Source: Citricoccus sp. CH26A
Lineage (GTDB): Bacteria; Actinomycetota; Actinomycetes; Actinomycetales; Micrococcaceae
Direction: 5' to 3'
Length of the DNA: 44,501 bases
Assembly: GCF_000224415.1 (NCBI RefSeq)
Contig: NZ_AFXQ01000023.1
Span: 1-44,501, forward strand
Shown: in pieces, positions 8,024-44,501 of the stretch
How the letters are laid out: every line of letters starts with the position of its first letter
How positions within the stretch are numbered: the stretch's first letter is position 1
Made by a program: the position numbers and the translations under genes
The notes under the pieces: model-generated
Told to the model about the DNA's origin: nothing
The model's input: only the letters and a program-made list of their open reading frames with translations
The model's database searches: none

Positions 8024-8515
8024 ATGGCCACTCGTATCGACCCCTTCCGTGAACTGGATCGCCTCGCCGGACAGCTGCTGAGCCCGGTGCGCGGCCTGCG
8101 GCAGATGCCGATGGACCTCTACAAGGACGGCGACCGCTACATCGTCGAGGCCGACCTGCCCGGGGTCGACCCCTCCAGTGTCGACGTGGACGTGGACGGC
8201 CAGCTGCTGACCATCCGCGCCGAGCGCAAGGCGGCGGTGACCGAGCGCGAGGGCGTGCAGTGGATGACCCGCGAGCGGGAGACCGGCAGCTACGTCCGCC
8301 AGCTGAACCTCGGCCAGGACGTGGACCTGGAGAACATCTCCGCCACCTATGACCACGGCGTGCTGAAGGTGACCATCCCGGTCTCGCCGAAGTCCCAGCC
8401 GCGCAAGGTCAAGGTGTCCACCGGCAACGGCGCCCAGGACATCCAGGCGACCGCCACCGAGACCAGCGGCCAGGACCAGGGCCCGTCCGCACCGCAGGTG
8501 GACCCCAACATCTGA
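8024..8515 (+). CDS. hsp20: Small heat-shock protein, Hsp20/alpha-crystallin family (copy 1)
   Basis: ATP-independent holdase chaperone of 163 residues that binds unfolding proteins as oligomers in the cytosol. The alpha-crystallin domain spans about residues 30-130: MPMDLYKDGDRYIVEADLPG, LLTIRAERK, GSYVRQLNLG and the closing GVLKVTIPV. The C-terminal tail is unusually Gln/Thr/Ser-rich and polar (from about residue 140). AAGGAGAACCC before the ATG is a strong ribosome site. The HAIR element at 7889-7913 predicts HspR-controlled heat induction. A second family member at 30140-30577 shares MPMDLY, DLPGVDP and TIRA but carries a CIRCE operator instead. Confidence 0.95.
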   Translation: MATRIDPFRELDRLAGQLLSPVRGLRQMPMDLYKDGDRYIVEADLPGVDPSSVDVDVDGQLLTIRAERKAAVTEREGVQWMTRERETGSYVRQLNLGQDVDLENISATYDHGVLKVTIPVSPKSQPRKVKVSTGNGAQDIQATATETSGQDQGPSAPQVDPNI

Positions 8516-8521
8516 TCCGCT

Positions 8522-8543
8522 CCCGCGGACACTGTTCCGCGGG
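8522..8543. terminator. Hairpin after hsp20
   Basis: Arms CCCGCGGA (8522-8529) and TCCGCGGG (8536-8543) with a six-base loop, starting seven bases after the hsp20 stop. No T-run follows, as is common in high-GC actinobacteria. Confidence 0.6.
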
Positions 8544-8565
8544 CGCAGTGCCCGGAACGCGGGAA

Positions 8566-8604
8566 GGCCCCGTCCCGCCTCGGATGCCGAGATGGGACGG
8601 GGCC
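8566..8604. terminator. Strong bidirectional hairpin between hsp20 and icd
   Basis: Arms GGCCCCGTCCC (8566-8576) and GGGACGGGGCC (8594-8604), 11 perfect pairs, with an inner CTCGG/CCGAG stem (8579-8583, 8587-8591). It lies between convergent hsp20 and icd and can serve both. Confidence 0.75.
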
Positions 8605-8631
8605 GTCCCGTCCGCTAGCCGCGGAGGGGCA

Positions 8632-10881
<2,250 letters not shown>

Positions 10882-10941
10882 TCACAGGGCGCAACCGGGT
10901 GACGGCCTCGCCGGGTCGTGGTGATGGTTCAATCCGGCCCT

Positions 10942-10947
10942 AATCTA
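10942..10947 (-). promoter_or_regulatory. Candidate -10 box TAGATT for icd
   Basis: TAGATT on the minus strand, 75 bases before the icd ATG, in the only AT-rich patch of the intergenic region. No convincing -35 box. Confidence 0.35.
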
Positions 10948-11008
10948 CCGGAGGCCGCCCGGTCCACCGATCCGGTGACCGGACCTGGCGGCACCGTCCT
11001 CCCGGCGC

Positions 11009-12799
11009 TCAGCCGTGGAAGAAGTGCCGGGCGCCGGTGAAATACATGGTGATGCCGGCCGCCTCCGCGGCGGCGATGACCTCCTCGTCGCGGATGGAGC
11101 CACCAGGCTGGACCACGGCGCGCACGCCGGCGTCGATCAGGATCTGCAGCCCGTCCGCGAACGGGAAGAACGCATCGGACGCGGCCACCGCGCCGCGGGC
11201 CCGTTCCGGCGCCCCGGTGCCGGTGACGTTCTCGGCACCACCCGCCGTCGTGATCTCGGCGCCTCCGGCCCCGGCGCCCGTCCCCACGTCCTGGGCGCCG
11301 GTCGCGGCGGCCCCCAGGGTGTTGGCGCGCTCGACGGCCAGCCGGCAGGAGTCCAGCCGGTTGACCTGCCCCATGCCAACGCCGACGGTGGCCCCGTCCG
11401 AGGCCAGCAGCACGGCGTTGGACTTCGCGGCACGCACCGCGCGCCAGGCGAAGGCGAGGTCGGCGAGGGTCTGGCCGTCCGCGGCGGGACCGGCGGCCAG
11501 GGTCCAGGTGGCGGGGTCGTCACCGGCGGCGTCGATCGCGTCCCGGGCCTGCAGCAGCATGCCCCCGGAGACCTGCTTGTACTCCACGGAGTCCCGGGCG
11601 TAGCCCTCGGGCAGGCGCAGCAGGCGAAGGTTCTTCTTGGCGGAGAGGATCTCCAGGGCCTCGGCGGAGAAGGCCGGGGCGATGACGACCTCGGTGAAGA
11701 TGTCCTTGACGGTGGCGGCCATGCCGGCGGTGACCTCGCGGTTGGCGGCGATCACGCCACCGAAGGCGGACACCGGGTCGCAGGCGTGGGCCTTGCGGTG
11801 GGCCTCGGCGATCGGATCGTGTCCCTGGGCGCCGGAGACCGGCGCCTCCTCGGACACGGCCACGCCGCAGGGGTTGGCGTGCTTGACGATGGCCACGGCC
11901 GGGACGTCGAAATCGTAGGCGGCGCGCAGGGCGGCGTCGGCGTCGGCGTAGTTGTTGTAGCTCATCGGTTTGCCGTGCAGCAGCTCGGCCTGGGCGATGC
12001 CGGGGGCGGCGCCGTCCTCCACGTACAAGGCGGCCTTCTGGTGCGGGTTCTCGCCGTAGCGCAGGGTCTCGGCGCGCTGCAGCGTCACGCCGGCATAGGG
12101 CGGGAAGACGGGCGCGGACGGGCTCAGGGCTGGCACGTCCTGCGCGACCTGACCGGCGCCGGTGACCGCGGCGTCGGTCTCGACGTCGTCGTCGGCCTCG
12201 AACTGCGCGGCGGTCCAGGAGGCCACGGCATTGTCATAGGCGGCGGTGTGGGCGAAGGCGAGGGCGGCCAGCCGGCGCCGGGTCCGCAGGTCGAAACCGC
12301 CGGACTGCGCCGCGCTCACCACGTCCCCGTACCTCGCCGGGTCCACGACGACCGCGACGGAGGGGTGGTTCTTCGCCGCGGCGCGGACCATGGAGGGCCC
12401 GCCGATGTCGATCTGCTCGACGACCTCGTCCTGGCCGGCGCCGGAACGCACGGTGTCCACGAACGGGTAGAGGTTCACGACCACCAGGTCGAAGGGCTGC
12501 ACGTGGAGCTGCTCGAGCTGGGCCACGTGGTCCTCGCGGCGGCGGTCGGCGAGGATCCCGGCGTGCACCATCGGGTGCAGCGTCTTCACCCGGCCGTCCA
12601 GGCACTCCTGGAACCCGGTCACCTCGGACACCTCGGTCACCGGGACCCCGGCCGCGGCGATCCGCTTCGCGGTCGAGCCGGTGGAGACGATCTGGACCCC
12701 GGCGGACTGCAGGCCGCTGGCCAGCTCCTCGAGCCCGGTCTTGTCGTAGACGGAGATGAGGGCCCGCTTGAGCGGGACCCGGTCGAGCTGGATGGTCAC
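11009..12799 (-). CDS. purH: Bifunctional AICAR transformylase / IMP cyclohydrolase
   Basis: Catalyses the last two steps of IMP synthesis. Residues about 1-200 are the MGS-like cyclohydrolase domain ([40 protein letters not shown]); the remainder is AICAR transformylase, with [35 protein letters not shown] and the C-terminal [10 protein letters not shown]. The start is GTG with AGGAG seven bases upstream. At 596 residues it is about 60-70 longer than usual, owing to a Gly/Ala/Thr-rich insertion at about residues 495-536 and a smaller acidic one near residue 270. Both lie outside recognisable catalytic motifs. purN, normally adjacent in actinobacteria, is 12 kb away on the same strand. Confidence 0.97.
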
Positions 12800-13001: not shown

Positions 13002-14708
13002 TCACTCGCCGTGGGACTGGGCCAGGTGCTCCACCAGCTTCCCGGCGCGTTCCTCGGACCGGCGCTGCAGGCCGAACTCCGCGGCGTACAGCACCCCGTA
13101 GCCGAACGTGTCCTCACCGGCCTTGGCGGCCTTCTTCGCGGTGTGCAGCACGTGCTCCTGGAACATGATGGAGTCCCGGTGCTCGCCCAGGGCCTCCTGC
13201 AGCTTCTTGGCGGTCTTCATGCGGGCCACCAGGTGGCTGCCCAGGTCCAGTCCGGTCGCGTCCTGGACGGCCTTGACCGCGTAGCGCAGGCGCTTGGCCT
13301 CCTTGCGGACCTCGTGCATCAGCTCGATCCGGCGCTCCGCGTCCTCCTCGGTGGCGGCCCGCTCGGCCAGCTCCAGCACCGCGTCGACCTGTTCGGCGGC
13401 CAGCGGTTCCATGGTCCCGGCGGCGTCGGCGGCCTGCGCCTCGTCGATCTCCGGGTGCAGCGGCACATCCCGGGCGTAGGCGTCCAGCCGGTCCAGGACG
13501 TCGAAGTACCACTGGGTGCGCATCCGCTTCAGGAGCTCGTCATGGGCCGCGGAGTACTCCTCGGCCTTGACCTTGCGCAACCGCTTGACCGTCTTGCCGG
13601 GGACCGTCCCCGCGACCGGACCGGAGGCCCCGCCGGGCAGGTCCTCCATCCTCTCGTCCACCTGGTCCCGGACCACCTCGGCGTCCCGGGCCACGGAGAG
13701 CAGCCGGCCCAGCCTGCGCAGGTCCTTGTTCACCCCGGCGGTGGCGTCCGGGTCCAGCAGCGGCGAGTAGGTCTGCAGGGTGGAGCGCAGGGTCCGGCAC
13801 ACCACGCGGAACTGGTGGATGGAGTCCTCCACGTCGCGGCGCACCAGCGGATCCCAGCCCTTGAGCACCTTCATCTCGGCGCGGACGGTCTTGGTCAGCA
13901 CGGCGTGCAGTCCCGGGGTGGTCCCGTCCGGGGCGTCCACCGCGCGAGGGTCCAGCGGATCGGCCGCCTTGCCGACCACCTTCTCCACCTTCGAGCCCGC
14001 TGCCGAGGGCCGTGCTCCGGAGTCCTGCAGGACCTGCCCGACGGCGTCCAGGAACCGCACGGCGCCCGAGGCCGGTTCCTGCGGGGTCGCCTCGGCGGCG
14101 CGGTCGGCCCCGTCCGGCGTCGGGCCCTCCCCCGCGACCTCGCGGACCTTCAGGGCGGAGTCCAGCAGGTCGGCGTCGACGACTTCGACCTCCCACTCCC
14201 GCCAGTGCTGGACGCGGGACTCGGAGCGGAACCCCACCGACATGGCGGCCACCTGGTCGTCGCAGACCTCGGCGAGCTGGCGGCCGTGGAAGTCCATCAG
14301 GTCCACCACCGAGCGCAGGGTGTTGAGCCGGGCGATCGGCCCGAGCGACTTGCCGCGCACGTGGACCTGCACCAGGTCCAGGATCCGGTCCGGGACGCGC
14401 ACGCCCTCGGGACCGGGCGCGGCGTCGGTGCAGTCCTCCGCGTCCAGCGGGGACTGCAGTTCCAGGCGGTGGTCGCCGGACTTGATCTTCACGTGCCAGC
14501 CGGCGTCCGCCCCGCCGGTGCGCCGGCGCAGGGTCACCCCGTTGGCCGAGAGGACCCGGTCCGGGGTGTCGAAGTAGACCGCCTCCAGGGCCATCGGCGG
14601 GCGGTACCGGACCTGGGCCACACCGCCCACGCCGTTGAGCCGGGGCAGGGAGGCCTGGCCGTCGACGTCGTACTTCCGCTCGATCTCCACATGGACTGCG
14701 TCACTCAT
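13002..14708 (-). CDS. CYTH and CHAD domain-containing protein
   Basis: Protein of 568 residues. The N-terminal CYTH (triphosphate tunnel metalloenzyme) domain, about residues 1-200, opens with the ExExK signature EIERK (8-12) and has [22 protein letters not shown] and [13 protein letters not shown], which supply tunnel-lining charged residues. The C-terminal CHAD domain, about 280-565, is helical and rich in conserved His, Arg and Lys ([35 protein letters not shown]), the surface that binds polyphosphate. CYTH enzymes hydrolyse inorganic triphosphate or related substrates, and CYTH-CHAD proteins are linked to polyphosphate metabolism; the exact reaction here is not known. The linker (about 200-275) is acidic and Ala-rich. 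It is divergent from the MFS transporter. Confidence 0.93.
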
Positions 14709-38037: not shown

Positions 38038-38472
38038 ATGATGTTCGAACATGCCGACGACGAGCCGATCCTGGTGCTGGACGAGGATCAGTGCTGGAGG
38101 GTCCTGGAGAACACCCGGCACGGCCGGCTCGGGTTGCGGGTGAACGACGAACTCGACCTGGTCCCGGTGAATTTCGTGGCCCGGGACAAGCGGATCTACT
38201 TCCGGACGGCACCCGGCAACAAGCTGGCGGAGCTGACCATCAACCCCAAGGTCATCTTCGAGGCGGACGGCATCCTCTCGGACGAGGCCTGGTCGGTGCT
38301 GGCCCGCGGCCACGCCCGGGTGCTCGAGAAGGACGACGAGATCGAATTTGCCGAGTCCCTGAGTATTGACCCCTGGGTCCCGACGTATAAGGATTTCTAC
38401 GTAGAGGTCAACGTCAACCGGGTCACCGGTCGGCACTTCGTCTTCGGTGAGCATCCAGAGCGCTTCGAGTAG
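38038..38472 (+). CDS. Pyridoxamine 5'-phosphate oxidase family (flavin-binding split-barrel) protein
   Basis: Protein of 144 residues. CWRVLENTRHGRLGLRVNDELDLVPVNF is split over the first 55 residues, followed by RIYFRTAPGNKLAELTINPKVIFEAD and GWSVLARGHARVLE-like strands, the pattern of the PNPOx-like group that binds FMN, F420 or haem. The specific cofactor is not readable. AAGGAG lies eight bases before ATG 38038; ATG 38041 follows immediately. Codons at about 38341-38410 (GAA, TTT, AGT, ATT, TAT, GAT, GTA) are markedly AT-richer than the rest of the window. It ends before a 15-pair terminator. Confidence 0.88.
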   Translation: MMFEHADDEPILVLDEDQCWRVLENTRHGRLGLRVNDELDLVPVNFVARDKRIYFRTAPGNKLAELTINPKVIFEADGILSDEAWSVLARGHARVLEKDDEIEFAESLSIDPWVPTYKDFYVEVNVNRVTGRHFVFGEHPERFE

Positions 38473-38492
38473 CAGCCGGATGGACACCAAAA

Positions 38493-38535
38493 CACCTGAC
38501 CCCCGGCAGCTGACGCGCTAGCCGGGGGTCAGGTG
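38493..38535. terminator. Bidirectional hairpin after the split-barrel gene
   Basis: Arms CACCTGACCCCCGGC (38493-38507) and GCCGGGGGTCAGGTG (38521-38535), 15 perfect pairs, 13-base loop. It lies between convergent genes. Confidence 0.8.
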
Positions 38536-38550
38536 CGTCCGGGGCCCGGA

Positions 38551-40308
38551 TCAGCCCGTCGCGTCCTCCACGTGGCTCGGCGCCCACATCCGCAACCGGG
38601 TCTGGACCACGACGACGTTCGGCCCCTCCGCGGCTAGGGCGCGTTCCAGCGCGGGGCCCACCTCCTCCACCGCCACCTGCTCGGCCGGGATGCCGAAGGA
38701 CCCGGCGAGGGCCACGAAGTCGGGACGGTCCAGCTCGGTGGCGGTCGCCTGACCAAAGGTGTCCTCCATGTAGGCGCGCAGGATCCCGTACCCGCCGTCG
38801 TCCACGATCAGCCAGGTCACCGGCGCGCGGTGCTGGCGGGCCGCGGCCAGCTCGGCGATCGAGTACATGGCGGAACCATCACCGGCCACCGCGAGCACCC
38901 GCGCGTCGGCCCCCCGCCTGCCCTGCCGCGCCAGGCCCATCGCCCCGCCGAACGCGGCGGGGAAGGCGTATCCCAGCCCGCCGGCGCCCTGGGCCGAGTG
39001 GAACTGCCCGGACCTGGCGTCCCACACGTTCCAGGCCCAATAGGCGGCGATGGTCATGTCCCAGTAGGTCTGCATGGCCTCGGGCACCGCGGCGCGGACA
39101 TCCGCCATGAACCGCCGTTCCCGGTGCAGGTCCTGGCCGTCCAGTCGCTCCTGGACGCGGCGGTTGACCTCGGCCACCACCTGTGCGGCGCCGCGGCCGT
39201 GCCAGTCGGACCGGGCCCAGCCGCCGGGCGCGCCGGTCTCCTGGCCCCCGACGGTCGCCGCCGACCGCTCCAGTGCCTGCGCGAGGGCCGCGAGCGCCTG
39301 GCCGGCGTCCGCCCGCACGCCGAGCGTGGGGAAGTTCGATTCGAGCACGCGCGGCTCGGCGTCGACCTGGATGAGCCGGCCGCGCGGTTCCAGGGTGAAG
39401 TAGTTGGAGGTGACCTCACCGAGGGACGAGCCGATCACGAGCAGCACCTCGGCGTCCTCGAGCACCTCGGTCACGTACCGGTCCTCCACCCAGGAGCCCA
39501 GGGAGAGCGGGTGGTCCACGGGGAAGGCCGAATTGCCACCGGGGCTGCACACCACCGGGGCGTCCAGCAGCTCGGCCACGCGGCGCAGCTCGTGCAGCGC
39601 CCCGGGCCCGGACCGCCGCACTCCCCCGCCGGCCACGATCGCGGTGCGGGCCGAGGAGGCCAGCCAGCGCACCGACTCCGCCACCAGCTCCTCCCGCGGC
39701 GGGTGGTCATAGGGGATGGCGAGCGCGTCCTGCACCGGCGGGACGAGGACCTCCCCCAGCAGCACGTCCTGGGGCACCTCCACCCACACCGGACCCTGCG
39801 GCACGGTGATCGCCTGGGCCCAGGCGTCCTGGATGGCCGAGGGGATGCCCGAGGCGTGGTGCACGGTGACCTGAGCCTTCGTCACGTTCTGCGCCGAGGC
39901 CTTCTGGTCGTCGAGCTGGTGCAGCATGCCCTTCCGGCGAGCACCCAGCCCCGAGACGGGGATCTGGGAGGCGACGACGACCATCGGCACCGCGGTGGCG
40001 TACGCCTCCTGCAGCCCCGCCAGGGCGGTCAGCGCGCCGGGCCCGGTGGACAGGAACAGCACGCCGACCTCACCGGTGGCCCGCGAGTAGCCGTCGGCGG
40101 CGAACGCGGCGTTGTTCTCCACCCGGTTGGAGACGAACTCCAGCTCCGAACGGGACAGCGCGTCGAACAGGCCCAGGGCGTGCTGGCCCGGGATCCCGAA
40201 GACGGTGCGGGCGCCCAGGGCGTGCAGGGTCTCGACGACCAGGTCCCCGCCGTTGCGCCTAGCGGTCCCGTCCCGCGCCCCGCTCCCGGCTCCGGGACCG
40301 GGCGTCAT
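38551..40308 (-). CDS. Thiamine-pyrophosphate-dependent decarboxylase (acetolactate synthase / benzoylformate decarboxylase fold)
   Basis: TPP enzyme of 585 residues with the three classical domains. [20 protein letters not shown] includes the proton-relay Glu64. The cofactor motif is [12 protein letters not shown] (476 on), ending [10 protein letters not shown] where most relatives have NNxxYG, so Asp503-Asp504 replace Asn-Asn. FAD-site residues of true acetolactate synthases are not evident and no small subunit is nearby, arguing for a 2-oxo-acid decarboxylase. Linkage with an agmatinase-family ureohydrolase suggests a 2-oxo-5-guanidinovalerate (2-ketoarginine) decarboxylase comparable with AruI; this is inference. 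Its ATG overlaps the ureohydrolase stop (ATGA). Confidence 0.88.
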
Positions 40309-41306
40309 GCCGTGCCCTCGCGCGAGGCCCGCAGGTCGGCCATCAGCCCGACGAGGTCGTAGGCCACGTGCGCGGCCGCCACCCCGGTCAGTTCGGCGTG
40401 GTCGTAGGCCGGAGCCACCTCCACGACGTCGGCCCCCACCAGGTCGAGTCCGCGCAGTCCGCGCAGGATCTCCAGCAGTTCCCGGCTCGTCATCCCGCCG
40501 GCCTCCGGGGTGCCGGTGCCCGGCGCGTGGGCGGGATCGAGGACGTCGATGTCCACCGAGACGTACAGCGGCCGGTCGCCGATGCGCTCGCGGAGCCGGG
40601 CCACCACCTCGTCCACCCCCAGGCGGAACACGTCCGCGCTGGTGACGATCCCGAAGCCGAAGCGCCGGTCGTCCTCGAGGTCCTTGCGGCCGTACAGCGG
40701 TCCGCGGGTACCGACATGGCTGAGGGCGTCCGTGTCGAGGATCCCCTCCTCCACGGCGCGGCGGAACGGGGTGCCGTGCGTGTACTCGGCGCCGAAGTAG
40801 GTGTCCCAGGTGTCCAGGTGGGCGTCGAAGTGGAGCAGGGCGAGCGGCCGCCCGGCGCGTTCGGCGGCGGCCCGCAGCAGCGGCAGGGCGATGGTGTGGT
40901 CACCGCCGATCGTCAGGAGCGAGGCGCCGTCCTGTGTCAGTGCCAGTGCGTCGGCCTGGATCGCCTCGATCGCCTCGTGGATGTTGAACGGGTTCACCGC
41001 CATGTCCCCGGCGTCCACCACCTGGACCTGGGCGAAGGGGGAGGTGTCCGTGGCGGGGTTGTAGGGCCGCAGCAGCCGGGAGGACTGCCTGACGTGCCCG
41101 GGGCCGAAGCGGGCCCCCGGGCGGTAGGACACCCCCGAGTCGAAGGGGACGCCGACGACCTTGACGGCCGCGGTCCGGCCGGCAGCGGCGGCCTCCTGGT
41201 CCGTGGGCAGCAGGGCGAACGTGGCGGCCCCGCCGAAGCGGGGCACGAGGGCAGAGTTCACCGGGCCGATGTTGCCGTTCTCGGTGACGCGGGGGATCTC
41301 CAGCAT
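40305..41306 (-). CDS. speB: Agmatinase-family ureohydrolase (agmatinase or guanidinobutyrase)
   Basis: Binuclear manganese ureohydrolase releasing urea from a guanidino compound; 333 residues. Metal motifs are complete: GGDHT (134-138), DAHLDT (161-166) and [19 protein letters not shown] with both Asp ligands. [18 protein letters not shown] near residues 52-69 is typical of agmatinases and guanidinobutyrases. The pairing with a TPP decarboxylase fits 4-guanidinobutyrate hydrolysis in arginine transaminase-type catabolism at least as well as agmatine use, since no arginine decarboxylase is seen. AGAGG lies about seven bases before the ATG. It is coupled to the downstream TPP gene by ATGA and separated from the regulator gene by 82 C-rich (on the transcript) bases. 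Confidence 0.92.
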
Positions 41307-41388
41307 GGTGTGACCTCTCGGTGGGTGGCGGTGGATGCGGTGGGTGGCAGCGGGGAGCGGTTGGCGGGGCGTGCGGAGGGTGGCGTCG
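41307..41388 (-). other. C-rich transcript spacer with an 11-base direct repeat
   Basis: Between the regulator stop and the ureohydrolase start, the mRNA strand is C-rich and nearly devoid of G. The plus strand has CGGTGGGTGGC at 41319-41329 and 41338-41348 and multiple GG/GGG tracts. It could host Rho loading on the RNA or a G-quadruplex on the template. Confidence 0.4.
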
Positions 41389-41964
41389 TCAGCTCAGGCG
41401 GCGGCCCGCCAGCGCCCAGAGCACGACGGCCTCGCGCTCACCGGGATTGGACCAGCTGTGCGGCTCGGAGCCGGAGAAGGAGGCGGTGTCCCCCGCCTCG
41501 AGCCGGACCTCGCCGCCGGTGGTGATGAACACGAGGCTGCCGCTGATCACGTGCAGCGACTCGACGTCGCAGTCCACCGTGTAGAGCTCGGCGTCCCCCC
41601 GGCCCCCGGGGGCGATCACGGCGCGGATCAACTGCAGCCCGCGCCGACCGGGAGGCGTCAGCAATTGCTCCGAGATGCCGTCCCCGCCCAGGTTGACCCT
41701 CGGTGCGTTCTCCAGCCGGACCACGGCGGTCTGCGGGGCGTCCAGGATCTCCCCCGCCGAGACGCCGAGCACCTGGCAGATGGCCACGAGGCTCGCGACG
41801 GACGGACTGGTGAGGTCCCGCTCCACGCGGGAGAGGAAGCCCTTGGTCAGTCCGGAGAACTCGGCCACCTGGTCCATGGTCAGCCGCCGCTCCTGCCGCA
41901 GCGCGCGCAGGCGTCCGCCGATCGCACGGTCCGGGACCGTGGGCTGGATCGGCAGGGACTTCAC
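41389..41964 (-). CDS. XRE-family regulator with C-terminal cupin
   Basis: Repressor-type regulator of 191 residues. The helix-turn-helix spans about residues 22-78 ([29 protein letters not shown], with [19 protein letters not shown] following) and the cupin about 120-185 ([31 protein letters not shown]). XRE-cupin proteins such as PuuR sense small amines or amino-acid catabolites. The GTG start has AGGAG six to eight bases upstream. It is divergent from the symporter with overlapping promoters and a palindrome over the -10 region, so autoregulation and symporter control are likely. It is followed by the ureohydrolase and TPP genes, probably as one operon. Confidence 0.93.
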
Positions 41965-41996
41965 GGCCGTCTCCTGCGCCGGGTACGGCCCCGAGG

Positions 41997-42049
41997 TTGT
42001 CTGTGGAGCAACATGTGTTTACCGTAGTCCCCACACGTGTGACCCGCAA
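41997..42049. promoter_or_regulatory. Face-to-face overlapping promoters with a central inverted repeat
   Basis: Plus strand: TTGTCT (41997-42002), 17 bases, TACCGT (42020-42025). Minus strand: TTGCGG (42049-42044), 17 bases, TACGGT (42026-42021). The two -10 boxes overlap by five bases. An inverted repeat ACATGTGT (42011-42018) and ACACGTGT (42033-42040), one mismatch, is roughly centred on them. This is a good candidate operator for the adjacent XRE-cupin regulator. Confidence 0.7.
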
Positions 42050-42073
42050 CACTCCTGAGCCGCGAGGAACCCC

Positions 42074-43624
42074 ATGCAGACCCTGAACATCGTCATCATC
42101 TCGGCCTACCTCGCCAGCATGCTGCTGTTCGGCTGGTGGGGTCGGCGACGCACCCGCGGCACCTCGGACTACCTGGTGGCCGGCCGCCGGCTGGGCCCCA
42201 TGCTCTACACCGGCACCATGAGCGCCGTCGTCCTGGGCGGGGCCTCGACCGTCGGCGGCGTGGGGCTCGGCTACGAGTTCGGCATCTCGGGCCTGTGGCT
42301 CGTGACGGCCATCGGCGTCGGCGTGCTGCTGCTGAGCCTGCTGTTCGCCCCGTCCCTGCAACGGCTCCGGATCTACACGGTCTCCCAGATGCTCACCCTG
42401 CGCTACGGCTCGGAGGCCACGCGCGCCTCCTCGATCGTCATGCTCGCCTACACCCTGATGCTGGCGGCCACCTCCACGGGCGCCTACGCCTCGATCTTCG
42501 TGGTGCTGTTCGGCTGGGACCGCTGGCTGTCCATCCTGGTGGGCGGCGGGATCGTCCTGGCCTACGCCGTGATCGGCGGGATGTGGTCCATCACCCTGGC
42601 GGACATGGCGCAGTTCATCATCATGACCGTCGGGATGTTCGCCCTGATGCTGCCCATCTCCCTCGCCAACGCCGGCGGCTGGAGCGGGCTCACCGCCCGG
42701 CTGGACGCCGAGTTCTTCGACCTCGGCGGCATGGGCCTGCAGTCGATCATCACCTACTTCGTCATCTACACCCTCGGCCTGCTGATCGGCCAGGACATCT
42801 GGCAGCGGGTCTTCACGGCGAGATCCCCCCAGGTCGCCCGCTGGGGCGGCACGACGGCCGGCGTCTACTGCATCCTGTACGGCGTGGCCGGGGCCGTGAT
42901 CGGCATGGCCGCCGCGGTGCTGATGCCGCAGGTCGAGGTCCGGGACGACGTCTTCGCCACGGTCGCCCTGGGCGTCCTGCCCATCGGCATCGGCGGGCTC
43001 GCGCTCGCCGCCGCCGTGGCCGCCATGATGTCCACCGCCTCCGGGGCCCTGATCGCCGCCGCCACCGTGGCCCGGGCCGACGTCGTGCCCCTGGTCCGCG
43101 ACCTCGCGGCCGGCCGGCGGCCGGAACGACTGGACGCCGCGCAGGCCGTCCGGGAGGCCGAGCAGGAGGCCGAGCAGTCCCGGCACTTCGAGGAGGACGT
43201 GAACTCCAACCGCTGGTGGGTCCTGGGGCTGGGCCTGTTCGTCCTGGTGCTGGCCATCCTGGTCCCGGACGTCGTGGCGGCCCTGACGATCGCCTACGAC
43301 ATCCTGGTCGGCGGCCTGCTGGTCGCCATCCTCGGCGGGCTGGTCTGGTCCCGTGGGACCGGACCGGGGGCCGCCTGGTCGATGGCCGCCGGCACGGTCG
43401 GCACGCTGACGACCATGATCGTCCTCGAGGTCCAGGCCACCGAGGCGTTCGGCGGGGTCTACGCCAACGAGCCGATCTACGTCGGGCTCGCGTCCTCGGC
43501 CCTGGTCTACGTCGTCGTCAGCCTGCTGACCCGCCCGACGCACCCCTCGGTGCTGGAGGCCTGGCGCCGTCGCCGGACCGAGGGCGCCACCGAGGAGCTC
43601 CGTCCGGGGGTGACCGTCTCCTGA
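42074..43624 (+). CDS. Sodium:solute symporter (SSS family)
   Basis: Sodium-driven importer of 516 residues with about 13 hydrophobic helices. TSDYLVAGRRLGPMLYTGTMSAVVLGGAST at about residues 31-60 holds the unwound first core helix, and GLALAAAVAAMMSTASGALIAAATVARADV contains the sodium-site serines of the LeuT-like core. The central cytosolic loop (RLDAAQAVREAEQEAEQS) is charged and probably helical. Substrate is likely an amine, guanidino compound or 2-oxo acid handled by the divergent operon, an inference from the shared promoter. GAGGAACCCC precedes the ATG. PutP- and PanF-like relatives exist, so specificity remains open. Confidence 0.93.
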   Translation: MQTLNIVIISAYLASMLLFGWWGRRRTRGTSDYLVAGRRLGPMLYTGTMSAVVLGGASTVGGVGLGYEFGISGLWLVTAIGVGVLLLSLLFAPSLQRLRIYTVSQMLTLRYGSEATRASSIVMLAYTLMLAATSTGAYASIFVVLFGWDRWLSILVGGGIVLAYAVIGGMWSITLADMAQFIIMTVGMFALMLPISLANAGGWSGLTARLDAEFFDLGGMGLQSIITYFVIYTLGLLIGQDIWQRVFTARSPQVARWGGTTAGVYCILYGVAGAVIGMAAAVLMPQVEVRDDVFATVALGVLPIGIGGLALAAAVAAMMSTASGALIAAATVARADVVPLVRDLAAGRRPERLDAAQAVREAEQEAEQSRHFEEDVNSNRWWVLGLGLFVLVLAILVPDVVAALTIAYDILVGGLLVAILGGLVWSRGTGPGAAWSMAAGTVGTLTTMIVLEVQATEAFGGVYANEPIYVGLASSALVYVVVSLLTRPTHPSVLEAWRRRRTEGATEELRPGVTVS

Positions 43625-43628
43625 CCGC

Positions 43629-43964
43629 TCAGGCCCACCAGATCGCCCCGATGCCCAGCACGGCCAGGGCCGTCACGAGCGCCATGAGCCACAGCACGGC
43701 CCAGGCATCGGCCCGCACCCGTTCCCGGGCGATCCCGGCGGACTGTGTCCCGTAGCGGTGCCGCTGGGTCCAGTGGATGACGAGCGCGGCCACCGCGCTC
43801 AGCACGGCAGGTGCCAGGGCCAACGGGCCGACGGCCCCGTACCAGCGCAGGAACATCGCCGCCGTGACGATGAGCGCCAACAGGGAGCGGTCCCAGCTCA
43901 TCACGGTCCGCTCCGGCTGCAGCCCCGGGTCCTGGTGCAGGGCGGTGGCGCTGAAGAGTGTCAC
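43629..43964 (-). CDS. DUF202 family small membrane protein (A)
   Basis: Protein of 111 residues starting at GTG, with three predicted helices (about 29-45, 48-65 and 88-108). QPERTVMSWDRSLLALIVTAAMFLRW has the DUF202 pattern: a polar ERT..W.R segment leading into helix 1. No molecular role is known for this family. It lies 19 bases after the second DUF202-type gene and probably shares its transcript. It converges on the symporter gene. Confidence 0.85.
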   Translation of the reverse strand: MTLFSATALHQDPGLQPERTVMSWDRSLLALIVTAAMFLRWYGAVGPLALAPAVLSAVAALVIHWTQRHRYGTQSAGIARERVRADAWAVLWLMALVTALAVLGIGAIWWA

Positions 43965-43983: not shown

Positions 43984-44382
43984 TCAGGCCGGCCGCATCA
44001 GGATGAACACGAACAGCACCACCGCCACGACGGCCCCGCCGGTGGCCAGGACCGGCACCAGCAGCGGCAACGGCAGCGGACGTCCCTGGCGCATGGCCCG
44101 CTCCACGCGCATCCAACGGAATCCTGCCGTGGTGGCGAGCAGGGCCGCGATGAGCAGCAGCCCGGACCCGGCCACCTTTCGGGTGAGCGGGTCGAACACG
44201 GACCCCGTGAAGGCCTCGACGGCGATCCCTCCGGCCAGCAGGGCCAGGGAGGTGCGGATCCAGGCCAGGAACGTGCGCTCGTTGGCCAGCGTGAACCGCG
44301 GGTCGGGCTCCCTGCCCCCGGCCAGCAACCGGGAGGCCAGGCGCCCTCGTGACGGGGTGACGGCGTCCTCGGGTGATGTCAT
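43984..44382 (-). CDS. DUF202 / YidH family membrane protein (B)
   Basis: Protein of 132 residues. PDPRFTLANERTFLAWIRTSLALLAGGIA is the YidH/DUF202 signature (NERTFLAWIRT), followed by two further helices (about 62-80 and 105-128). ATG 44382 was chosen because a TACGAT hexamer lies six bases upstream. First gene of a two-gene operon with the other DUF202 protein, a pairing common in actinobacteria. Function unknown. Confidence 0.9.
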   Translation of the reverse strand: MTSPEDAVTPSRGRLASRLLAGGREPDPRFTLANERTFLAWIRTSLALLAGGIAVEAFTGSVFDPLTRKVAGSGLLLIAALLATTAGFRWMRVERAMRQGRPLPLPLLVPVLATGGAVVAVVLFVFILMRPA

Positions 44383-44388
44383 AGGCCC

Positions 44389-44398
44389 ATCGTAGAAT
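44389..44398. promoter_or_regulatory. Overlapping divergent -10 boxes
   Basis: TACGAT on the minus strand (44394-44389) serves the YidH-type gene; TAGAAT on the plus strand (44393-44398) points to the gene at the right edge. They overlap by two bases. Confidence 0.45.
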
Positions 44399-44405
44399 GA
44401 GGGTG

Positions 44406-44421
44406 GTCCGGACGACCGGAC
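44406..44421. repeat. Small perfect inverted repeat
   Basis: GTCCGG (44406-44411) and CCGGAC (44416-44421) around ACGA, in the predicted leader of the right-edge gene. Confidence 0.4.
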
Positions 44422-44453
44422 TGTTGCCTTCCCGAGACGGAGCCGCCCTCTCG

Positions 44454-44501
44454 ATGCCTGACGCATCCTCCTTCCCCGCATCCCGCCGCAGCCCGGACGG
44501 T
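44454..44501 (+). CDS. Possible start of a gene running off the right edge
   Basis: ATG 44454 opens 16 codons to the window end (MPDASSFPASRRSPDG). It lies 55 bases after the TAGAAT hexamer, with a GGAG about 14 bases upstream, which is a weak ribosome site. Too short to identify. Confidence 0.35.
   Translation, partial: MPDASSFPASRRSPDG

Follow-up and report, generated by a model that had tools for sequence, protein, structure and literature searches.

The closest described chemistry is that of the arginine transaminase (ATA) pathway, in which AruI, a 5-guanidino-2-oxopentanoate decarboxylase, converts 2-ketoarginine to 4-guanidinobutyraldehyde. The closest described gene group is the Pseudomonas aeruginosa gbuA locus, with genes for a LysR regulator, a guanidinobutyrase, an NTF2 protein, a cytosine permease, an SSS symporter, an AruI-subfamily TPP enzyme (883.5 bits), and an FAD oxidoreductase. 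Its guanidinobutyrase is identical across all 319 residues to PDB entry 3nio, and its TPP and symporter genes are presumably PA1417 and PA1418. The genes gbuA and PA1416-PA1420 decrease together in a mexT mutant, according to passages of PMC12607905. In Streptomyces, Medi2865, which is annotated as an agmatinase, converts 4-guanidinobutyrate to 4-aminobutanoate (described in passages of PMC5704753). No description of an actinobacterial cassette of this kind or of its enzymes was found in the literature searched, which covered titles, the starts of abstracts, and some passages of papers outside subscription.

We propose that the window, the whole 44,501-nucleotide stretch of Citricoccus sp. CH26A DNA analysed here, encodes a cassette, under local control, that breaks down an arginine-derived guanidino acid via 2-ketoarginine and 4-guanidinobutyrate to GABA and urea, and we give this reading a probability of about 0.6. 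The symporter would take up the guanidino acid, and the TPP enzyme would convert 2-ketoarginine to 4-guanidinobutyraldehyde. The next step, to 4-guanidinobutyrate, would fall to an aldehyde dehydrogenase whose gene lies elsewhere in the genome, though beside the cassette in some relatives; the ureohydrolase, judging from homology and an active-site residue, would split 4-guanidinobutyrate into urea and GABA. GABA may leave through GabT and succinate-semialdehyde dehydrogenase, also encoded elsewhere. Judging from the footprint and domain architecture, the XRE-cupin protein would sense one of the intermediates and act at a palindrome to repress the two divergent transcripts.

Gene layout and candidate operator

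Three of the four genes lie on the minus strand, namely those for the XRE-cupin transcription regulator (41389-41964, 191 aa), the ureohydrolase (UREO; 40305-41306, 333 aa), and the TPP-dependent 2-oxo acid decarboxylase-like enzyme (38551-40308, 585 aa). The XRE and UREO genes are 82 nt apart, and the UREO and TPP genes share an ATGA start/stop overlap (40305-40308, minus strand), read in the sequence as ...GGCATGACG... The SSS-family sodium:solute symporter gene (42074-43624, 516 aa) is divergent on the plus strand, starting 109 nt from the XRE start. Pfam assigned UREO, the proposed 4-guanidinobutyrase, to the Arginase family (317.4 bits), the proposed 2-ketoarginine decarboxylase to TPP_enzyme_N/M/C, and the proposed guanidino acid transporter to SSF (PF00474). 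The coordinates and families are as given in the preliminary description, which had reported ATGA-coupled ureohydrolase and TPP genes with an XRE-cupin regulator and a divergent SSS symporter at 38551-43624. No match came from scanning the whole window for Rfam families and tRNAs, or positions 38400-43700 for promoters and terminators.

The regulator combines an XRE helix-turn-helix (HTH_31/HTH_3) with a C-terminal cupin (Cupin_2), a PuuR-like architecture, and scored 66.4 bits against the PuuR model, below the equivalog cut-off of 211. In the gap between the regulator and symporter genes, the sequence GCAACATGTGTTTA (42008-42021) has two mismatches to the palindrome GCAACANNTGTTGC and is the only site in the window within two mismatches; sites within three mismatches numbered eight, which is the chance level (8.58 expected). 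Of 50 XRE-SSS intergenic regions, 42 contained the palindrome with no more than two mismatches, compared with a shuffled mean of 0.42. Exact copies were absent from the genome of the window and its six same-genus genomes. Across 120 family genomes there were 25 exact sites in 21 genomes against 33 in the reversed control (summed forward columns), so that no genome-wide excess was seen and a genome-wide regulon was rejected. Nine of these 25 sites lay no more than 7 kb upstream of a TPP gene, where ~0.04 were expected. This proximity, together with the lack of a genome-wide excess, points to local control rather than a regulon, and the conserved palindrome at 42008-42021 is a candidate operator that fits such control.

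Comparison with related loci

Like the cassette, the P. aeruginosa gbuA locus brings together a GbuA-type ureohydrolase (44% identity), an SSS symporter (49%), and a TPP enzyme. However, its regulator is of the LysR rather than the XRE-cupin type, its TPP enzyme belongs to another clade (30% identity), its gene order is different, and it carries an additional FAD oxidoreductase. Its permease has a counterpart in the NCS1 permease found in 7/44 actinobacterial loci of the class-level set described below. The ATA pathway resembles the cassette in the proposed conversion of 2-ketoarginine to 4-guanidinobutyraldehyde, whereas the cassette contains no arginine aminotransferase or oxidase and its TPP enzyme falls under the cut-off of the AruI family NF005712 (311.7 vs 500 bits).

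Relatives were compared in two sets, a Micrococcaceae-type set made up of the best 80 of at least 522 confirmed relatives, and 44 class-level loci from other Actinomycetes. UREO and TPP genes adjoin on one strand, separated by -3 to 243 nt, in all 80 loci of the first set; 52 of these best 80 of at least 522 show the order SSS-/XRE+/UREO+/TPP+, so the four-gene grouping is not due to chance. UREO also adjoins TPP in 40 of the 44 class-level loci; the other four, and Embleya, have TPP without UREO. The expectation that similar groupings exist in other actinobacteria was thus borne out by the gene-neighbourhood search, and the cassette belongs to a known type of pathway, of which it is a widespread variant. 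The compact four-gene unit at this locus is one of several layouts, because in 57 of the 78 Micrococcaceae-type loci with readable upstream sequence (among the best 80 of at least 522) the XRE gene lay over 400 nt away from UREO or was not found. The XRE regulator occurred in only two of the 44 class-level loci.

In 7/44 class-level loci, TPP has an aminobutyraldehyde dehydrogenase gene downstream on its own strand, and the two that were scored reached 646 and 647 bits (cut-off 615). All seven come from one family (f24) and therefore possibly represent one event. An eighth dehydrogenase match lies upstream and on the other strand, at a locus without UREO (L189). GabT (769 bits, cut-off 639) and two SSADH-like genes are found beside L156, and GabT is upstream of UREO in 3/80 Micrococcaceae-type loci (best 80 of at least 522); the GabT of L085 scored 602 bits, under the cut-off. 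The cassette on a plasmid of Arthrobacter sp. NicSoilB11 (L028) has a symporter, cupin regulator, speB agmatinase, and TPP-binding protein in the same order as the window. It differs in being plasmid-borne and in having a second copy that is inverted and apparently damaged.

The TPP-linked ureohydrolase of Streptomyces had an ortholog in 40 of the 41 Streptomyces genomes sampled. Medi2865, as far as the passages describe it, therefore most likely belongs to the clade of this enzyme, and the ortholog distribution suggests that Medi2865 and a second Streptomyces amidinohydrolase, Medi4948, probably share a ureohydrolase clade with the cassette. The substrates of Medi4948 in those passages are polyketides, unlike the role proposed for the cassette enzyme.

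The TPP enzyme and its substrate

The best NCBIfam family for the TPP enzyme is NF005712 (AruI), but its 311.7 bits fall below the curated cut-off of 500, and NF006122, named only as a hypothetical protein, scored close to this (303.7 bits). Against NF005712 and the same cut-off, the TPP relatives of L157 and Embleya scored 352.9 and 348.8 bits, and NF006122 is the best family for both. In the phylogenetic tree, 15 actinobacterial rows and five AruI-type rows each formed one group (100/99), with the TPP enzyme outside the AruI-type clade. It shares an LHxLxxQ motif with the five AruI-type rows; the other seven paralog rows in the comparison lack it, and motifs of this type occur in 123 of the 125 TPP rows read. 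Since the enzyme scores below the AruI cut-off and sits in its own clade, we infer 2-ketoarginine as its substrate from context only, and it is the weak link of the proposed pathway.

The low AruI score, the separate clade, the almost equal NF006122 score, the 30% identity shared with the P. aeruginosa enzyme, and the loci with TPP but no UREO would all suit an enzyme acting on another 2-oxo acid, or a carboligase, whose only tie to a hydrolase of 4-guanidinobutyrate or 3-guanidinopropionate is co-regulation. We consider this unlikely in view of the adjoining UREO gene in 80/80 (best 80 of at least 522) and 40/44 loci, the motif held in common with AruI-type rows, and the pairing of an AruI-subfamily enzyme with guanidinobutyrase in P. 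aeruginosa. The genome also encodes its own benzoylformate decarboxylase elsewhere (L209, 677 bits), and that identity was rejected for the TPP enzyme.

A bolder suggestion, whose odds we put a little short of even, is that Actinobacteria have a second, separately derived clade of 2-ketoarginine (or 2-ketoornithine) decarboxylases, outside AruI and paired with guanidinobutyrase. The unit would be near-universal in Streptomyces, by the ureohydrolase ortholog count (40/41), and common in Micrococcaceae, masked by annotation as agmatinases and as generic TPP-binding proteins, with arginine-derived polyketide starter acids in soil as a possible feed.

The ureohydrolase and the remaining pathway steps

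The ureohydrolase has all three metal motifs sought (GGDH, DAHxD, and DxDxxDP), as GGDHT at 134-138, DAHLD at 161-165, and DIDVLDP from 252. Its top solved relative is guanidinobutyrase 3nio (278 bits), followed by guanidinopropionase 3nip (261), proclavaminate amidinohydrolase (PAH) 1gq6 (242), and agmatinase 4dz4 (221). R80 aligns with R72 of GbuA and is Arg in all 119 orthologs read; passages of PMC9772407 describe R72 as capping the active site, where it could bind the substrate carboxylate. The cap position is Ala in two solved agmatinases (4dz4 and 7lol) and His in PAH. GbuA M161 corresponds to Y170, as in guanidinopropionase, with Tyr in 119/119 orthologs. Met is not universal here among guanidinobutyrases, because the Aspergillus niger enzyme likewise has Tyr (passages of PMC10833137). 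The ureohydrolase is thus most likely a guanidino-acid hydrolase of the 4-guanidinobutyrase type, and its predicted cleavage of 4-guanidinobutyrate is well supported by homology and one active-site residue. PAH ranks third among the PDB matches, which raised the possibility of a clavulanate-like CeaS/PAH pairing; this was rejected on the cap His of PAH and on the uptake and regulator genes, which suit catabolism better.

The same two enzymes could also act in reverse order, with the ureohydrolase splitting 2-ketoarginine into urea and 5-amino-2-oxopentanoate, the TPP enzyme decarboxylating the latter to 4-aminobutyraldehyde, and an aminobutyraldehyde dehydrogenase yielding GABA. R80 might bind 2-ketoarginine as well, and the f24 relatives have an aminobutyraldehyde-type dehydrogenase adjoining the cassette. 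However, the dehydrogenase type is not decisive, as GabD-type enzymes accept the guanidino aldehyde as well as the amino aldehyde (passages of PMC7268258), and Medi2865 hydrolyses 4-guanidinobutyrate in the account of PMC5704753. We consider this order unlikely, slightly more so than a different TPP substrate.

The ureohydrolase exceeds the NCBIfam agmatinase cut-offs (TIGR01230, 216.4 vs 174.3; PRK02190, 304.1 vs 302), and the Arthrobacter copy is annotated speB, as would suit agmatine catabolism or polyamine synthesis. This name does not discriminate, because speB/agmatinase is also what the guanidinobutyrase of P. aeruginosa is called. R80 stands in place of the Ala of the two solved agmatinases, and, as the preliminary description had it, arginine decarboxylase is missing: of the three families searched in the genome, PF01276 and PF01862 had no proteins and the sole PF02784 protein is LysA (427 bits, over 297.9). 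We know of no role for a TPP decarboxylase in agmatine use. An agmatine or polyamine role is quite improbable and was dropped as the leading idea on R80 and the lack of the three decarboxylase families. The AruI/GbuA logic put forward earlier is well supported in its guanidino-acid half (R80, the PDB ranking, the gbuA locus, the GabT and aldehyde dehydrogenase neighbours of some relatives, and the lack of arginine decarboxylases of the three families), while its AruI half is circumstantial.

Least probable is a guanidine hydrolase (GdmH-like) or other small-guanidine enzyme, as PDB entries 7esr and 7oi1, which we take to be the guanidine hydrolase Sll1077, matched at only 156 bits vs 278 for 3nio. 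Sll1077 reportedly proved to be a guanidine hydrolase later on. Its earlier prediction as a guanidinobutyrase, in passages of PMC2242806, speaks for keeping such enzymes in mind and warns against similarity alone.

The agmatinase label on the cassette ureohydrolase in related bacteria is probably wrong. If so, a gene annotated as agmatinase in many actinobacterial genomes (the ortholog in 40/41 Streptomyces sampled) would encode a guanidino-acid hydrolase, an arginine-to-GABA route in such genomes would have been overlooked by current annotation, and metabolic models that place the gene in agmatine and putrescine metabolism would be in error there. The unnamed TPP-enzyme clade and the accompanying SSS and NCS1 transporters would also gain one testable substrate.

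As anticipated, no aldehyde dehydrogenase was found among the window neighbours scanned. The genome gave 17 aldehyde-dehydrogenase matches (two being pieces of one place; best identity 38%), none a clear candidate for the pathway. Of the four scored, two had aminobutyraldehyde dehydrogenase as best family, at 426 and 418 bits (<615). Urease alpha was not found in the genome, and two GabT proteins exceeded the cut-off, at 749 and 795 bits.

A four-gene cassette and its conservation

The window, a 44,501-base contig of a 3.47-Mb genome, carries at 38551-43624 the four genes named in the preliminary description: a TPP enzyme gene (TPP; 38551..40308, minus strand), a ureohydrolase gene (UREO; 40305..41306, minus strand), an XRE-cupin regulator gene (XRE; 41389..41964, minus strand) and an SSS sodium symporter gene (SSS; 42074..43624, plus strand). 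XRE lies upstream of UREO on the same strand and SSS is divergent, and the ATGA overlap said to couple UREO with TPP is present in the sequence. The same four genes stand in identical order on a plasmid of Arthrobacter sp. NicSoilB11 (L028). This plasmid holds two cassette copies in inverted orientation (L028:1135-7966 and 8225-11671), one apparently damaged, with ureohydrolase and symporter matches in pieces and no such genes annotated in an incomplete gene table.

Gene-neighbourhood comparison bore out the earlier impression that similar groupings exist in other actinobacteria; the cassette is real and conserved. Among the best 80 of at least 522 confirmed relatives in a named genome collection, which form our Micrococcaceae-type sample, UREO and TPP were same-strand neighbours in all 80 loci, spaced -3 to 243 nt apart. 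The layouts in these best 80 were SSS-/XRE+/UREO+/TPP+ (52), XRE/UREO/TPP (18), UREO/TPP alone (8) and two others, one each, and the nearest named relative of the window TPP gene among them was from a Citricoccus metagenome-assembled genome (95%). This relative and the Arthrobacter plasmid suggest a Micrococcaceae-like source for the window. Within the family, 93 of 120 genomes had a TPP match at E ≤ 1e-60, the window's own counted and one of the 93 just 36% identical. Across Actinomycetes, TPP matches at E ≤ 1e-150 occurred in 47 of 394 genomes; four Micrococcaceae genomes were left out, giving 44 class-level loci from 43 genomes. UREO was found in 40 of these 44 loci, each time within 600 nt of TPP, and the other partners were a PucR-type regulator (33), SSS (29), an NCS1 permease (7) and XRE (2), with PucR and NCS1 neighbours identified by Pfam. 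Because the UREO-TPP pairing is near-constant while the regulator type varies across loci, the stable core is the enzymatic pair, with the regulator swapped.

TPP without UREO was seen in L154 (the second copy of one genome), L164, L167 and L189, and in Embleya (L029). At the Embleya locus (L029:8003-14892), TPP has as neighbours genes for an amino-acid permease, a PucR-like protein and, judged by eye, a creatininase-like protein, and its partner hydrolase may be a different one. A record named Sporosarcina beigongshangi (L058), with a TPP gene 71% identical and UREO adjoining, may be a Micrococcaceae assembly that was contaminated or given the wrong name. Several Arthrobacter and Sinomonas loci (L074:4572-6551; also L058, L066 and L107) have a divergent gene for a protein of ~659 aa upstream of UREO. 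The starts of these proteins look alike by eye, and the L074 copy, the one scanned, matched nothing in Pfam (E ≤ 0.001) or NCBIfam (E ≤ 1e-20).

Proposed enzyme identities and the Pseudomonas parallel

The best reading of the four genes is a cassette for guanidino-acid catabolism, and the assignment of its ureohydrolase as a guanidino-acid hydrolase is strong. The solved relatives of this enzyme were, best first, guanidinobutyrase (GbuA; 3nio), guanidinopropionase (GpuA; 3nip) and proclavaminate amidinohydrolase (PAH; 1gq6), followed by agmatinases. R72 of GbuA, contributed by the neighbouring subunit, is described as capping the active site, where it could touch the substrate carboxylate (PMC9772407). 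The corresponding residue is R80 in the window enzyme, arginine in GpuA, histidine in PAH and alanine in the agmatinases 4dz4 and 7lol. Both R80 and Y170 (GbuA M161, GpuA Y157) were kept in all 119 orthologs read. The NCBIfam name of the window ureohydrolase is agmatinase, which the P. aeruginosa guanidinobutyrase record also carries. S. mediocidicus Medi2865, annotated as agmatinase, is reported to convert 4-guanidinobutyrate to 4-aminobutanoate (PMC5704753). A TPP-linked Streptomyces ureohydrolase used as query had a match in 40 of 41 Streptomyces genomes, counted by ureohydrolase sequence alone. Since these copies fall at 100% (own genome), 88-96% (other genomes) and 82%, 64% and 41-47% (extra copies), it is most likely, judging from identity levels, that Medi2865 and Medi4948 (82 and 80% to one probe) lie within the query's clade and that Medi0234 (41%) belongs with the distant copies.

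The preliminary description had proposed a route of the AruI/GbuA type; its ureohydrolase half is well supported, and the evidence for its AruI half is circumstantial. The window TPP enzyme has complete TPP domains, and its best curated family is AruI (2-ketoarginine decarboxylase, NF005712) at 311.7 bits, under the cut-off of 500, followed by NF006122 at 303.7; TPP relatives from Embleya and L157, another locus, were likewise under both cut-offs. In a 27-row tree, which gives no branching order between the two groups and has long branches among its reference rows, 15 actinobacterial rows formed one group and five AruI-type rows another (each 100/99). Every one of the nine actinobacterial and AruI-type rows compared carried the motif LHx(L/I)xxQ, which the seven other paralog rows lacked; among the TPP rows of relatives, 123 of 125 had it. 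Because it shares this motif but scores below the cut-off and groups separately, the enzyme plausibly works in an AruI-like manner yet is not classifiable as AruI, and we hold its assignment as a 2-ketoarginine decarboxylase with moderate confidence. It is rather unlikely that the ureohydrolase acts first, removing urea from 2-ketoarginine before the TPP enzyme decarboxylates the product; what keeps this order in play is a report that an AruI homolog can prefer 5-amino-2-oxopentanoate (PMC7268258). In the preferred route through 2-ketoarginine decarboxylation, the symporter would import a guanidino acid, the XRE-cupin protein would sense a ligand, the TPP enzyme would act on 2-ketoarginine and the ureohydrolase would hydrolyse 4-guanidinobutyrate.

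The P. aeruginosa gbuA locus (L031) encodes a LysR protein, a ureohydrolase, an NTF2 protein, a cytosine permease, an SSS symporter, a TPP enzyme and an FAD oxidoreductase. Its ureohydrolase is the 3nio guanidinobutyrase, identical across 319 residues, and its TPP enzyme is named 5-guanidino-2-oxopentanoate decarboxylase and falls in the AruI subfamily (883.5 bits). We take PA1416 to PA1420 to be genes of this record. In a PAO1 mexT mutant, gbuA and PA1416 to PA1420 were all reported as decreased (PMC12607905), and they therefore appear to be co-regulated. The window proteins match those of this locus at 44% (ureohydrolase), 49% (symporter) and 30% (TPP enzyme). Both of these distant lineages group a TPP enzyme with a guanidinobutyrase-type ureohydrolase and with SSS symporters from a single family, whereas their TPP enzymes belong to different clades. 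A literature search, mostly of titles and abstract openings, found no published description of the actinobacterial cassette or its enzymes; the chemistry is known, and the cassette is a widespread actinobacterial variant of it.

Further steps in relatives and in the genome

In 7 of the 44 class-level loci, TPP was followed on its own strand, after 83-1868 nt, by an aminobutyraldehyde dehydrogenase gene; the two scored reached 646 and 647 bits (cut-off 615). All seven come from one family (f24), so they perhaps reflect one event. An eighth match (L189) was upstream, on the opposite strand, in a locus without UREO. At another locus, L156, the neighbours were two succinate-semialdehyde-dehydrogenase-like genes, both under their cut-offs at 595 and 495 bits, and a GabT gene above its own (769 bits, cut-off 639). 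GabT also lay upstream of UREO in three of the best 80 of at least 522 relatives (L046, L056 and L085), the L085 copy, the sole one scored, having 602 bits, under the cut-off of 639. Pooled over relatives, such neighbours would supply the predicted steps from 2-ketoarginine to succinate; no single locus with all of them was seen among the relatives' loci.

The window's own genome has two GabT enzymes above the cut-off (749 and 795 bits) and a third at 613, and a succinate-semialdehyde-dehydrogenase-like enzyme at 531 bits, under 646. The closest of its 17 aldehyde-dehydrogenase matches shares 38% identity with the enzyme of the relatives, and none of the four scored was above the aminobutyraldehyde-dehydrogenase cut-off. 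The genome's only other arginase-family gene lies within a hut gene cluster, a context from which it was named HutG by eye. A search of this genome for urease alpha found none, and the urea may be processed by another route or excreted. The claim that no arginine decarboxylase is present extends to the genome for three families, with no match to PF01276 or PF01862 and LysA as the sole PF02784 match (427 bits over 297.9).

Candidate operator and flanking genes

The XRE-SSS intergenic region contains a candidate operator palindrome (window 42008-42021). Of 50 intergenic regions between SSS and XRE, 42, the window's among them, had a site within two mismatches of GCAACANNTGTTGC (shuffles 0.42), and eight did not. 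Where XRE was far or not found, 37 of 57 loci had a site within three mismatches upstream of UREO (shuffles ~5.3); the shuffles are mononucleotide and ignore relatedness, and the motif was derived from the same sequences. Upstream of UREO in the window, where XRE is just 82 nt away, there was no site (best 5 mismatches), and sites within three mismatches across the whole window were at chance level (8 found vs 8.58 expected). Exact matches in 120 family genomes numbered 25, below the 33 of the reversed control. Nine of the 25 lay at most 7 kb upstream of the TPP gene (~0.04 expected), though this test is not independent, as the genomes overlap with the motif's source set. In Pseudomonas, XRE-cupin proteins reportedly act as local repressors that a metabolite releases (PMC7901475).

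A pyridoxamine-phosphate-oxidase-like gene (PF12900; window 38038-38472) adjoins TPP and is also kept beside it in four close relatives (L033, L034, L035 and L041), with glutamate dehydrogenase nearby. Two adjoining DUF202 membrane proteins (43629-43964 and 43984-44481) are encoded next to the symporter, and a CYTH-CHAD protein is encoded at 13002-14708.
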